36,571 bases of DNA from Accumulibacter sp. (GCA_031290495.1 JAITNL010000223.1:1-36571); one strand, 5' to 3'; counted from the first letter of the stretch, positions 8,454-14,522 are shown. Program-made: numbers and translations. Notes: generated by a model from the letters alone, not told the origin.

Positions 8454-9728
8454 TTATCGAACCGCCGCCAGCGCCTGGTCGAGATCGGCGAGCAGGTCGT
8501 CGATATGCTCGATGCCGATCGACAGCCGCACCATGTCGGGCGACACGCCGGCCTTGGCCAGTTCCTCGGCGTTGAGTTGGCGGTGCGTGGTGGACGCCGG
8601 GTGACACGCAAGCGATTTGGCGTCGCCGATGTTGACCAGCCGGGTGAACAGCTTGAGCGCGTCCTGAAAGCGCGCGCCGGCCTCGATGCCGCCTTTGATG
8701 CCGAAAGTGAGGATGCCCGAGGCGCGGCCGCCCATGTATTTTTGCACCAGCGGGTGATCGGGGTGATCGGGCAGACCGGCGTAGTTGACCCACGAGGCCT
8801 TGGCGTGGCTCTTGAGGAATTGCGCGACCCGCAGGGCGCTGTCGCAGATGCGGTCGAGGCGCAGCGCCACGGTTTCCACGCCTTGCAGGATCAGGAAGGC
8901 GTTGAAGGGCGAGAGCGCGCCGCCCTGGTTGCGCAGCGGCACCACGCGGGCGCGCCCGATGTAGGCCGCCTCGCCGAAAGCGTCGGTGTAGATCACGCCG
9001 TGATACGAGGGGTCGGGTTGGCTCATTCTGGGAAAACGCGCCTGGCGCCGCGCCCAGGGGAATTTGCCCGAATCGACGATCGCGCCGCCGAGCGAGTTGC
9101 CGTGTCCGCCGAGGTATTTGGTCAGCGAATGCACGACGATGTCCGCGCCGTACTCGAAGGGCCGGCACAGATACGGGGAGGGCACCGTGTTGTCGACGAT
9201 CAGTGGAATACCGGCCTGGTGGGCGATGGTCGCCAGCGGCTCGAAATCGGTGATGTTACCGAGTGGATTGCCGATGGATTCGCAGAAAATGGCCTTGGTG
9301 CGGCCGTCGATCCGCTGGCGGAAGCTTTCCGGATCGCCAGAGTCGGCGAAGCGCGTTTCGATGCCCAGTTGCGGGAAAGTGTGGGCGAAAAGATTGTAGG
9401 TGCCGCCGTAGAGCGTGGCGGCGGAAACGATGTTGTCGCCGGCTTCGGCGATGGTCTGGATGGCGTAGGTGGTCGCGGCCATGCCCGAGGCCACCGCCAG
9501 CGCGCCGATACCGCCTTCCAGCGCCGCGATGCGCTGTTCCAGCACCGCGTTGGTGGGGTTCATGATGCGCGTGTAAATATTGCCCGCCACCTTGAGGTCG
9601 AAAAGATCCGCGCCGTGCTGCGTATCGTCGAAGGAATAGGACGTCGTTTGGTAGATCGGCGTCGCGACGGCATGGGTGGTGGGTTCCGGGGTATAACCCG
9701 CGTGGATGGCGAGCGTTTCAAATTTCAT
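8454..9728 (-). CDS. metY: O-acetylhomoserine sulfhydrylase (PLP-dependent, Cys/Met metabolism)
   Basis: MKFETLAIHAGYTPEPTTHAVATPIYQTTSYSFDD; VVHSLTKYLGGHGNSLGG PLP-lysine motif; C-terminal VRLSIGIEHIDDLLADLDQAL. Confidence 0.93.
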   Translation of the reverse strand: MKFETLAIHAGYTPEPTTHAVATPIYQTTSYSFDDTQHGADLFDLKVAGNIYTRIMNPTNAVLEQRIAALEGGIGALAVASGMAATTYAIQTIAEAGDNIVSAATLYGGTYNLFAHTFPQLGIETRFADSGDPESFRQRIDGRTKAIFCESIGNPLGNITDFEPLATIAHQAGIPLIVDNTVPSPYLCRPFEYGADIVVHSLTKYLGGHGNSLGGAIVDSGKFPWARRQARFPRMSQPDPSYHGVIYTDAFGEAAYIGRARVVPLRNQGGALSPFNAFLILQGVETVALRLDRICDSALRVAQFLKSHAKASWVNYAGLPDHPDHPLVQKYMGGRASGILTFGIKGGIEAGARFQDALKLFTRLVNIGDAKSLACHPASTTHRQLNAEELAKAGVSPDMVRLSIGIEHIDDLLADLDQALAAVR

Positions 9729-10161
9729 GGGGACTCCGTCGTTGGGGGAAGGGACAAAAATGCTAACACCGAAAAGCGTTTGATTGGCGGTTTGGTTGAA
9801 GGCCGATGTTCCGGCGTTCTGAATGGCACCGGCATTGGTCAGTGATTTACCGTCGTCGCTCTTGCCGTTATCGGCGTGGATGAGTGTGCAATAGCCGCTG
9901 GGGACATCGCCGCCTTCAGGCAGCCATAACTCCAGGACAGATTGAATAACTCGTGACAAAATTCACGCACGCCCTTGTATTTTTTCGTCTTATAGGCGAA
10001 ACTTCTACCCTTATGGGAGAATTTTATATACGTGTTTTTGGGGTTCGCAACCAAAAAAGTGAACAAAATGAAAACGGCGGCACCATTTCTTTTTGATCGG
10101 TCCAGCGCCCGGATCGGAACCAGCGATTTCGGCTCGCCCATGATTCTGACACGATTTTTGT

Positions 10162-10187
10162 CCCCACCCCCCCCCCCCACCCCCCCC
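10162..10187 (+). repeat. Poly-C tract C4-A-C12-A-C8
   Basis: Directly seen: tccccaccccccccccccaccccccccg. Confidence 0.95.
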
Positions 10188-10346
10188 GCTTTCCGTTGTC
10201 GTGTAAGCGCCGCGTTCCAAGCGCCGATGAATAACGACCAGGATTCACGCGCGATTTGCGGAAAACAACATCGCAACATCGACTGGTCTTCGCGGAAAAC
10301 GCGCGTTATTATCTGGGCATCCCTGTTTATACGATTGCCAGTCATC

Positions 10347-11585
10347 ATGATGTTCAGAAATCGATTCGGCCTTTTCGTGGCCGTATTCCTTATTGCCCTG
10401 TTTCCCATTTTGGATACCGCGCTGGCCAATGAAACGGACGGCGCGTCCGCTTTCACCTTGCGCGGTTTCGGCACGCTGGGCGTGGCGCGATCGACCAATG
10501 GACAGGCGGAAATAACGCACGATCTGCTGCAACCGCACGGTGTTTCGAATCACTGGTCGGGAAAAATCGATTCCAACCTCGGCGCGCAGCTCAACTACGT
10601 GGCAAGCGATACCGTCGAAGCGGTTGCCCAGGTGGTCAGCCGCTACAACTACAAGGGAAATTTCACACCGCAAGTGACGGAACTGCTCGTCAACTACGAT
10701 CCCAACGCCAATTTGAAACTGATCGCGGGAAGAATCAGCGCCAATCTTTTCCTGCGCGACGGCAATCGGCTGATTGGCTATTCCCAACTGGCCGTTCGTC
10801 CGAACATCGACTATCTTTCGGGGATGGCGATCACTTATCTGGATGGCGTGGATGGCCGGATCACGCTTCCGCTCGGCAAGGGGCTGCTGATCGGCGAAGC
10901 GTATTACGGCTTTCTCGCGGAAAGGTACGCGCTGGCCAACGGCAACCTCGATCTGCATGGTTCACGCACGATTGGCGTTCAAATCGATTACCTGTCGGGA
11001 GACTGGCAATGGCACGCCGGAATATCGCAGGTCCGCTTCAATCATTCGATGCCGGCGCAAATTCGTGAGTTTCAGGCGGATATGCGCAGGGCTGGAATCG
11101 ATTCCCTGACGCGAGCGGCAAAGAAACTGGATTTGCGGGATACGGATGCCATGTATTACACCGTCGGCATGAACTATGACCCCGGTCCCTTGCTGTTGCA
11201 GCTCATGTTGAGTCGGTTGAACTACGATACCCGCGCCCTGCACGGACGCGATACAGCATTGTTCCGGGCGAGCTATCGCATCGGCGAGGTCAAGCCTTTC
11301 ATCGGCTATTCGTGGGCCAAATCACGGCGCGCGCATATTACGTCGGGTTTGCCGAGCGGGGACGGCTGGGACGACCACTTGCGCATGGTGCTGGCGCAGT
11401 CCTACGTTGACCAGCACACGGTCTCGATGGGGATGCGCTGGGATTTCCAGCGCAACATGGCCTTGAAGTTTCAGGCCGACCTGATTCGCGGCCGATCCAA
11501 TTCAATCTACGCGGTTCGTGACGCTACGCCTCGCTGGGACGGGAAGACAAAGCTTTTTTCCGTGGCGCTGGATTTTGCTTTCTAG
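10347..11585 (+). CDS. Porin-like outer-membrane protein
   Basis: Signal peptide MMFRNRFGLFVAVFLIALFPILDTALA; beta-barrel-like sequence ending FSVALDFAF; ORF is open from 10032. Confidence 0.75.
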   Translation: MMFRNRFGLFVAVFLIALFPILDTALANETDGASAFTLRGFGTLGVARSTNGQAEITHDLLQPHGVSNHWSGKIDSNLGAQLNYVASDTVEAVAQVVSRYNYKGNFTPQVTELLVNYDPNANLKLIAGRISANLFLRDGNRLIGYSQLAVRPNIDYLSGMAITYLDGVDGRITLPLGKGLLIGEAYYGFLAERYALANGNLDLHGSRTIGVQIDYLSGDWQWHAGISQVRFNHSMPAQIREFQADMRRAGIDSLTRAAKKLDLRDTDAMYYTVGMNYDPGPLLLQLMLSRLNYDTRALHGRDTALFRASYRIGEVKPFIGYSWAKSRRAHITSGLPSGDGWDDHLRMVLAQSYVDQHTVSMGMRWDFQRNMALKFQADLIRGRSNSIYAVRDATPRWDGKTKLFSVALDFAF

Positions 11586-11594
11586 GGGAGCGGC

Positions 11595-12020
11595 ATGTTG
11601 AGACGACTCCTCCTTTTCCTCTTTTTCGCGTTGCCGCCCATTGCGGCGAACGCTGAAAGCATCGTCGTCGTGGTCAATCCGGAGAGCGGAGTCGAGTCGC
11701 TCAGCCGCGACGAGGTCATCAATATCTTCCTCGGACGTTTTCGCCAGTTTCCAACAGGAAACATGGCGCTTCCCATTGATCTGTCGCGCGAGGATCCGGT
11801 GCGGAGAGAGTTCTACCAACGGCTGGTGGGTAAAACGCCGTCGGAAATCAATTCCTACTGGTCACGTCTGATACTCTCGGCAAAAACGCGCCCGCCGATA
11901 CAGGTGGAGCGCGTCGAGGACGCGCTGACGCTGGTTCACCGATCGGCCAGCGCGATCGCTTATCTTGAACGCAGACAGATGAACAAACCAATGAGGATCG
12001 TCTTTGAACTGCCGCTTTGA
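11595..12020 (+). CDS. PstS-like periplasmic (phosphate ABC transporter substrate-binding-like) small protein
   Basis: Signal peptide; IVVVVNPESGVESLSRDEVINIFLGRFRQFPTG..PIDLSREDPVRREFYQRLVGKTPSEINSYWSRLILSAKTRPP motif. Confidence 0.82.
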   Translation: MLRRLLLFLFFALPPIAANAESIVVVVNPESGVESLSRDEVINIFLGRFRQFPTGNMALPIDLSREDPVRREFYQRLVGKTPSEINSYWSRLILSAKTRPPIQVERVEDALTLVHRSASAIAYLERRQMNKPMRIVFELPL

Positions 12021-12044
12021 GCCATAATCGCGGTTGCAAGAGGC

Positions 12045-14522
12045 GTGTGGATGTTTTTTGACAGGTGGCGCATGAAGTATTTCTGGCGGCAAAGCATTTT
12101 GGTGCGCACGGCGGCGCAGGTCGTCGGCATCTGCCTGTTTGTCGGTCTGTGCGTTGTCCTGCTGACCAATTACCAGGCCGAGCGTTTTGTACAGCAAGAC
12201 ATTTCCTGGCGTATTCACCAGTTGTTATCGACCTTCGAGCGGACGGTTCAGATCGCCTGTTTTGCCCAGGATGAAAATCTGGCGCAGGAAGTAGTGAACG
12301 GTCTGACCCAGCACAGCGAAATCATCGGCGCGGGGATCACCGACGGCACGAAAATTCTGGCCGAAAGCCAAAGCCAGGGAAACGGCGTGGATGACGAACC
12401 GCAGCGTCGAGTGACCAGCGAACGCATCAGCAGGAGAATCGCGTCGCCGTTCGACGCGACGCAAATCATCGGCGAACTGTTCATCGATCTGGACCCGGAA
12501 ATCGTGAACCTGCACGTTCAAAAGCGTGTTTCCTATGTCGCCACGCTGCTGGGCGTGCAACTGCTGGCTGTGGTTCTGGTCGTGTTGATCGTGGTCCTGC
12601 TGTGGGTCGTGCGTCCGATCAAGCGCATGTCCGACAAGCTGCACCTGATGAACGCGCATTCGGCCGAACCGCTGACGCTTCCCGCCGGACAGGAAAACAC
12701 CGAGATCGGGCGTCTCGCGTTCGACATCAACCAGCTCCGCGAGCGTCTGCTGGTCGCGCTGGACGAAGAGCACAATCTGCGTATCCAGCAGGAAATCGGC
12801 GAGCGCAAGTACCGCGCCATTTTAGAGCAGGCCAAGGCGGGCATTTTCCTGATTGATCGGGGCATGGTGGTGGAATCCGGCAATCCGAGTTTCCATCGTT
12901 GCTTCGGCTTGCCGCCGACGACGGACGAAGCAATCAATTTGTTGCAGCTGCGTTGGCGAAACCCCGACGCGCTCAAGAAGCTCGTCGAGCAATGCGTCGC
13001 GAAAAACGACACGGTCACGGACGATTTCGAGTGCGATGTCGGCGACGATGCGCACTGGTTCAACGTGACACTGACGCCGATTGACGACCAGTTGATCCAG
13101 GGACAATTGTCAGACATTTCCCGGCAAAAACAGATGGAAATGCTGGCGCAGCACGAAGCCGTCACCGATGGACTGACCGGTCTGCTGAATCGCGTCGGTT
13201 TCATACAAAAGCTCGACCAGGAGATTGCCGCCTGCAACGCGAGGAAGGGCGAAAACCAGGGTTTTGCCCTGCTGTGCGTCAATTTCGACAGTTTTCGCCA
13301 GGTCAACGAAACGCTGGGAATCGCCGCCGGCGACCAGATTCTGACCATCGCGGCCCAACGTCTGCGTTCCTGCGTCAAGAGTTCCGATTTTATCTCGCGC
13401 CTGGGCAGCGACGCCTTCGCGCTCATTCTGCGTTCGACGACGGACGAAAAGGTGGTGAATAACATCGCCATACGCATTTCCACCGCCCTGAAAAGTTTTA
13501 TCGACGTCAGCAACACGCCGATGCAACTTGGCGTGAGCATCGGTATCACGCTCTTCCCGCGCGACGACAGCGAACGGCAGATGTTGCTGCGCAACGCCGA
13601 AATGGCGCGCGAACACGCGCGCTACGGTCATGGTCACCGCCGCCACTGCTTCTTCGACTCCACCATGGCGAGCAACGCCGAACACCGGCGGCGTCTGGAA
13701 AGCGACCTGCGCTTTGTCGTCCGGCGCAACGAACTGATCGTCCGTTTCCAGCCAATCGTCGACATGCGGGTACGCCGGATGACCGGCGTGGAAACCCTGG
13801 TACGTTGGGAGCATCCGCAGTTCGGGCTGATTCCTCCCGACATCTTCATTCCGCTGGCCGAGGAAACCGGCGCCATCGTCGATATCGGGCTGTGGGTGCT
13901 CGAAACCGCGATTCAGCAGTTGGCGGTCTGGCGGCGGCAAGGGTTTGATCGTTACATCTCGGTCAACGTTTCAGCGCGGCAGATCCCTGACGGACTGGCG
14001 CCCATTACCATGATCGAGCTTGTCAACCGCTATGGCGTTGAACCGGCCAACCTGGCCATCGAAATTACCGAGAGTCTGTTCATGGGCAATTCGGAAGCGG
14101 TGAAGACCTGGCTCGACGCGGTCCATGCTCTTGGTTTTCCCATTTACCTTGACGACTTCGGAACCGGCTACTCGTCGCTGTCGTATATCAGACACTTCCC
14201 CGTGGATGTGTTGAAAGTGGATAAGTCATTCATCTGCGACATCAACGAGGAAAACAGCGCGTACGCCCTGGTCGGCGCGATCATCAACATGGCGCACAGC
14301 CTGGGATTGAGGGTTGTGGCCGAGGGCGTGGAATCGCAGCGCCAGCTCGACTTGTTGGTAATGGAAGGTTGCAATTGCATACAAGGGTATTATTTTTCGC
14401 GTCCGGTAGCGGCGAACGAGATCGAGGCCGCCAACCAGCGCATCGAAGAATTGATCGCTCTGGCCCCAACGCCACTCTCTGGGGGCGCGGAAATACAGCA
14501 GCTCTCTCTCGGTAAAACCTGA
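12045..14522 (+). CDS. Membrane sensor with HAMP, PAS, degenerate GGDEF and EAL domains (probable c-di-GMP phosphodiesterase)
   Basis: TM-periplasmic-TM-HAMP N-terminus; PAS; GGDEF motif replaced by RLGSDAFAL; EAL domain with ETLVRW, IEITES, LDDFGTGYSSL, KVDKSFI, VVAEGVE, QGYYFSRP. Confidence 0.92.
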   Translation: MWMFFDRWRMKYFWRQSILVRTAAQVVGICLFVGLCVVLLTNYQAERFVQQDISWRIHQLLSTFERTVQIACFAQDENLAQEVVNGLTQHSEIIGAGITDGTKILAESQSQGNGVDDEPQRRVTSERISRRIASPFDATQIIGELFIDLDPEIVNLHVQKRVSYVATLLGVQLLAVVLVVLIVVLLWVVRPIKRMSDKLHLMNAHSAEPLTLPAGQENTEIGRLAFDINQLRERLLVALDEEHNLRIQQEIGERKYRAILEQAKAGIFLIDRGMVVESGNPSFHRCFGLPPTTDEAINLLQLRWRNPDALKKLVEQCVAKNDTVTDDFECDVGDDAHWFNVTLTPIDDQLIQGQLSDISRQKQMEMLAQHEAVTDGLTGLLNRVGFIQKLDQEIAACNARKGENQGFALLCVNFDSFRQVNETLGIAAGDQILTIAAQRLRSCVKSSDFISRLGSDAFALILRSTTDEKVVNNIAIRISTALKSFIDVSNTPMQLGVSIGITLFPRDDSERQMLLRNAEMAREHARYGHGHRRHCFFDSTMASNAEHRRRLESDLRFVVRRNELIVRFQPIVDMRVRRMTGVETLVRWEHPQFGLIPPDIFIPLAEETGAIVDIGLWVLETAIQQLAVWRRQGFDRYISVNVSARQIPDGLAPITMIELVNRYGVEPANLAIEITESLFMGNSEAVKTWLDAVHALGFPIYLDDFGTGYSSLSYIRHFPVDVLKVDKSFICDINEENSAYALVGAIINMAHSLGLRVVAEGVESQRQLDLLVMEGCNCIQGYYFSRPVAANEIEAANQRIEELIALAPTPLSGGAEIQQLSLGKT

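Follow-up and report, generated by a model that had tools for sequence, protein, structure and literature searches.

The window analysed here is a stretch of 36,571 nucleotides from Accumulibacter sp. (GCA_031290495.1 JAITNL010000223.1:1-36571), with a GC content of 60%. It is one whole contig of a metagenome-assembled genome (G000) from an uncultured member of the Rhodocyclaceae in the Propionivibrio/Accumulibacter group, which comprises 2.75 Mb in 263 contigs and is 89% complete. The congeneric named relatives are recorded as Propionivibrio or Accumulibacter. An interrupted poly-C tract, C4-A-C12-A-C8, is present at 10162-10187 on the plus strand, upstream of three genes encoding an outer-membrane porin, a small PstS-like periplasmic protein and a membrane GGDEF/EAL protein. 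The initial annotation of this DNA had described the tract exactly and named the same three products, and it proposed that slippage in the tract switches the module, either through promoter spacing or through an N-terminal extension of the porin. Is the tract such a switch? Or is it one of many similar runs within this genome? Comparison with related genomes, one per species and the nearest (G025) sharing 79% identity in etf DNA, suggests that the general idea of phase variation suits this organism, which has a genome-wide set of tracts, but that both mechanisms proposed for the porin tract are unlikely.

The porin operon and the sequence upstream of it

The porin gene (10347-11585, plus strand) encodes 412 aa including a signal peptide. 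The protein had no match when scanned against Pfam. An AlphaFold model made with 28 relatives as input (predicted local distance difference test, pLDDT, 85) has about 16 strands and an N-terminal signal region of low confidence. This model matches the general porins OmpT, PorB, Omp32 and OmpF at E ~1e-14 and has the predicted features of the general trimeric-porin fold, a 16-stranded outer-membrane barrel with a signal peptide. Next is a gene for a 141-aa periplasmic protein (11595-12020, plus strand), which is tentatively PstS-like, its family profile finding PstS chains at E ~1e-3 only. The third gene (12045-14522, plus strand) encodes an 825-aa membrane protein with PAS, GGDEF and EAL domains, as identified by domain scan. 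This gene order is old. Among 30 named porin loci, from Rhodocyclales, Gallionellaceae, Thiobacillus, Thiocystis and others, the PstS-like gene is beside the porin in 29 and the GGDEF/EAL gene is there as well in 18. The operon of these Betaproteobacteria and their relatives has the same order as here, yet it differs in what precedes it: no C/G run of 7 or more is present in the 500 bp upstream of any of the 30 porin homologs.

The tract is the sole place in the window where a run of C or G exceeds 6. Its pure C12 core (10167-10178, plus strand) is the part long enough for ready slippage, being beyond the 8-9 or more bases at which pure C/G tracts slip frequently. C12 occurs once in the window against a mean of 0.01 in 100 dinucleotide-preserving shuffles, and the 26-mer, with 2 mismatches allowed, had no matches in those shuffles. 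From the end of the tract to the porin ATG is 159 bp, rather than the 160 bp given in the initial annotation, which had placed the likely start itself correctly at 10347. The tract is outside both the porin coding sequence and the predicted core promoter.

This promoter was predicted by alignment with orthologs from three genomes that retain the operon, G028, G027 and G018. Their similarity to the window begins at about 10290 and continues to the start codon, where they share ATCATGATG. The window sequence CGTTATTAT aligns with an extended -10-like TGCTACTAT or TGCTACCAT in the three relatives, and the hexamer TATTAT at 10307-10312 (plus strand) is the predicted -10 element. It ends 34 bp before the ATG, as it does in G027. 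From the position of the hexamer, the transcription start would be expected near 10319, some 130 bp past the 3' end of the tract; the tract itself sits 119 bp upstream of the -10-like element. Since this element and the start codon are both conserved and both lie downstream of the tract, slippage would leave the spacing of the core promoter unchanged, and the promoter-spacing switch first proposed is unlikely. Between the tract and the predicted -10 are two copies of TTYGCGGAAAAC, 34 bp apart on the plus strand (10255-10266 and 10289-10300). This direct repeat could be a pair of operators or could be due to chance.

The frame of the porin is open from 10032 across the tract into the gene. It contains the alternative ATG noted previously, which is at 10227 and not at 10228, as well as an overlooked ATG at 10140 on the 5' side of the tract. 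Translation from 10140 would add an N-terminal extension (MILTRFLSPPPPPTPPAFRC..., 10140-10346, plus strand) that runs through the tract. There is no Shine-Dalgarno sequence at either ATG, leaving the tract without a translated frame behind a start and ribosome-binding site, and we judge the extension not to be translated. The porin orthologs start at the position equivalent to 10347, and in the closest full-module ortholog, that of G028, an in-frame stop is present 66 bp upstream of the porin with no start codon between. The conserved anatomy and the missing Shine-Dalgarno sequences make the N-terminal-extension switch of the initial annotation unlikely as well.

The intergenic stretch that contains the tract (9780-10290, no strand assigned) is single copy, has no match in the DNA of 8 congeners and has no match to an Rfam family, and a non-coding RNA reading was dropped on the latter ground. 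The tract was also considered as a piece of a repeated element, which was rejected as the genome does not contain a second copy. On the other side is a divergent gene (8454-9729, minus strand; 89% DNA identity in G025), which we take to encode a pyridoxal phosphate (PLP)-type enzyme of Cys/Met metabolism, and whose 5' flank borders the intergenic region. The sequence ATTTTTGTCCC followed by a C-rich run is found at two sites as an inverted pair (9744-9761 and 10154-10171). The first precedes the divergent gene, the second is where the tract starts, and each is oriented with the gene on its side. These were rejected as the ends of a mobile or invertible segment. Similarity to G025 extends to 9779, beyond the left arm, so this arm belongs to the flank of the divergent gene. 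Elsewhere in the window, an autotransporter with a Gly-rich passenger is encoded at 55-2436, the contig beginning 54 bp before its ATG.

Long C and G tracts across the genome

C/G runs of at least 9 bases number 49 in G000, and pure runs of at least 12 number 32, where about 2 of the latter would be expected by chance if C and G each had a frequency of 0.30. Within the genus (29 genomes), runs of 12 or more are absent from 16 genomes and number up to 30 in G004 and 32 in G000. G000 also ranks first among the 399 genomes sampled from the order, 279 of which have none. The next, with 22 runs, is a genome of another family (G202) and may be a second, independent case. Long poly-C/G tracts are abundant in some species and absent from others of the same genus; besides G000, those noted in the genus are G004, G025, G001, G015, G012, G007 and G011.

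Sequence stretches were extracted around every G000 tract for their anatomy. In the majority of informative cases the run is found at the 5' end of a gene for a surface or polysaccharide function. There, an altered length would move the reading frame, an arrangement usual for translational phase variation, which probably operates in these genes. Two autotransporters begin ATG-TCT-CAT-CTC-ATT-ATT-G-C14 after an AAGGAG site and are in frame, at 1072 and 1098 aa with an autotransporter beta-domain (L149:2516-5731 and L148:374-3667). A third paralog, with ATG-TCT-CAT-C14, is out of frame. Also in frame through first-codon tracts of C14-C15 or G14-G15 are a TonB receptor with C15 from codon 9 (L051:17-2107, minus strand), a lipoprotein with G14 after the lipobox Cys (L042:125-2017), a family-4 glycosyltransferase with C14 after the ATG (L040:920-2029, minus strand) and an FkbM methyltransferase (L038:1061-2017, minus strand). 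In two other lipoproteins of the same family as the G14 lipoprotein, two further methyltransferases and two radical-SAM genes, the tract interrupts the reading frame, and the rest of the protein is open in another. At the tract position a G011 homolog of the lipoprotein reads TGC-GGC-GGA-GGT-AGC, and so the tract looks to have grown from a glycine linker. Genes with such first-codon tracts form a candidate phasome of G000, one that from its anatomy is better founded than the porin tract.

Long tracts appear to avoid gene interiors, with 0/33 located there against 36/110 short runs from the same stretches, although these tallies are approximate because the gene caller was crude and misplaced some genes (L038, L040). 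The presence of a Shine-Dalgarno sequence and start within 120 bp is not discriminating (19/75 tracts, 39/198 control runs), and a search for a flanking motif common to the tracts gave weak similarity only. Lost mismatch repair was considered as the cause of the tracts and, as far as MutS and MutL are concerned, rejected for G000, where the two proteins are full-length. Tract sites are clustered at contig ends, with 10 of 30 within 300 bp of an end against 1.7 expected (for example on contigs C8, C44, C51, C118, C165 and C194). This may reflect heterogeneity of tract length in the sampled population, which it fits, or sequencing dropout, which it fits also. Poly-C/G blocks of up to 65 bases are seen at some contig ends (L052:1-100 and L041:2039-2262), and are probably assembly artefacts or low-complexity sequence. 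A second distal intergenic tract, C17 at L054:1989-2005, is about 130 bp upstream of a gene for a putative HU-type DNA-binding protein.

Other such tracts in the same genome are a mark of loci whose phase variation is driven by simple sequence repeats, and the porin tract has many. With so large a set, several members of which are textbook cases in their anatomy, it is credible that slippage-driven variation occurs in this organism. There is strong circumstantial support, drawn from the sequence, for G000 possessing a phase-variable gene repertoire.

Weighing the role of the porin tract

The reading we favour is that the porin tract is a C run grown by slippage, one of about 30 that the genome has accumulated. 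It would be an outlying member of the set, intergenic and interrupted, positioned about 120 bp upstream of a conserved core promoter and free to drift in length. The porin/PstS/GGDEF-EAL operon is most likely switched by it weakly or not at all. Several points weigh against this. The pure C12 has the length needed for slippage, the frame upstream of the porin stays open across the tract into the gene, and the -10-like element was predicted from only four orthologs. In addition, distal repeat tracts are able to tune promoters, as at nadA (PMC2791445).

The last point leads to the most serious alternative, in which the distance or phasing of an upstream regulator site relative to the porin promoter is fixed by the tract, tuning the three-gene operon in the manner of nadA. 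The tract does lie upstream of the predicted core promoter, the TTYGCGGAAAAC repeat is between it and the -10, the genome is rich in such tracts, and the products of the operon are surface and signalling proteins. However, the stretch bearing the tract is missing from all orthologs, and in none of G028, G027 and G018 is the repeat seen. A nadA-type switch would have operators on both sides of its tract, while here the repeat is only on the downstream side, with no known counterpart across the tract. The A interruptions would also restrict slippage to the C12 and C8. With the stretch unconserved, the tract interrupted and the repeats one-sided, a distal switch is possible but a good deal less likely than little or no effect.

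The remaining explanations are less probable still. Were translation to begin at ATG 10140, the extension (MILTRFLSPPPPPTPPAF...) would have a layout like that of the autotransporters (MSHLIIAPPPPAF...), with the ATG 22 bp before the tract, as compared with 19-25 bp in the autotransporters and the TonB receptor, and with an open frame from 10032. Those genes, however, have AAGGAG-type sites where the porin frame has no Shine-Dalgarno sequence, the signal peptide would follow some 69 residues of extension, and in G028 a stop precedes the porin with no intervening start codon; translational phase variation is thus improbable. It is more doubtful again that the tract, or the precise length recorded for it, arose as an artefact of assembly or sequencing. 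Implausible blocks (C65, G26) at some contig ends and the enrichment of tracts near contig ends would allow for this, but the porin tract is internal to a 36.6-kb contig and has structured A interruptions, and other tracts are in frame within intact genes that have their own start and ribosome-binding site. Least probable of all is a promoter-spacer switch with the tract between -35 and -10. Long poly-C tracts do act so in other bacteria, of the porA, fetA and opc type, but a scan for hexamer pairs flanking the tract found none, with one weak minus-strand site only, and the conserved -10-like element is well downstream of the tract.

Significance and comparison with known systems

Contingency loci are known mainly from host-adapted pathogens, most of them AT-rich. 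In a 2010 survey of 99 genomes, poly-C/G tracts of 7-8 were over-represented almost only below 50% GC (PMC2831843). About 30 long tracts at surface genes, in a genome whose window is 60% GC, would extend the contingency strategy to a Rhodocyclaceae group for which we found no report: in the open-access literature searched, none joins phase variation with Propionivibrio, and for Accumulibacter there are only three papers, all incidental. The G000 tract set would then be a known homopolymeric phenomenon that, judged against that literature, is new for a GC-rich group. Because the spread of tracts within one genus is patchy, from 0 to 32, comparative work could test how phasomes originate. The porin tract on its own is of importance only if an effect of its length is demonstrated; distal switching of the operon would tie phase variation to c-di-GMP signalling. 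The boldest form of the proposal is a phasome of Campylobacter or Neisseria scale in a GC-rich, uncultured Rhodocyclaceae lineage, where the poly-C/G tracts are unusually long, MutS and MutL are intact, and the porin/PstS/GGDEF-EAL operon belongs to the phasome via its distal tract. Taken as a whole, this is doubtful.

In porA, opc and fetA of Neisseria and in fim of Bordetella a poly-C/G tract lies between the -35 and -10 elements. The porin locus resembles these spacer-type promoters in that a poly-C tract precedes a gene for an outer-membrane or surface protein, but differs in that its tract lies some 120 bp before the -10-like element. In nadA of Neisseria meningitidis, the spacing between operators that lie 5' of the promoter changes with the length of a TAAA tract (PMC2791445). 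A repeat tract upstream of the core promoter, which is predicted here, is common to both; unlike nadA, the porin repeat is an interrupted homopolymer, with no operators or regulator identified and no length variants known. The homopolymeric G/C loci of Campylobacter (PhasomeIt, PMC6321876) share with G000 the possession of many poly-G/C tracts, mostly in reading frames for surface modification and in both ON and OFF states. The differences are that in G000, with a window of 60% GC, runs are as long as 13-21 and poly-C is often coding, and that the porin tract is intergenic where those of Campylobacter are mostly within reading frames. Homopolymeric phase variation is itself well known, and by analogy the Campylobacter phasome is the closest parallel to the G000 set.
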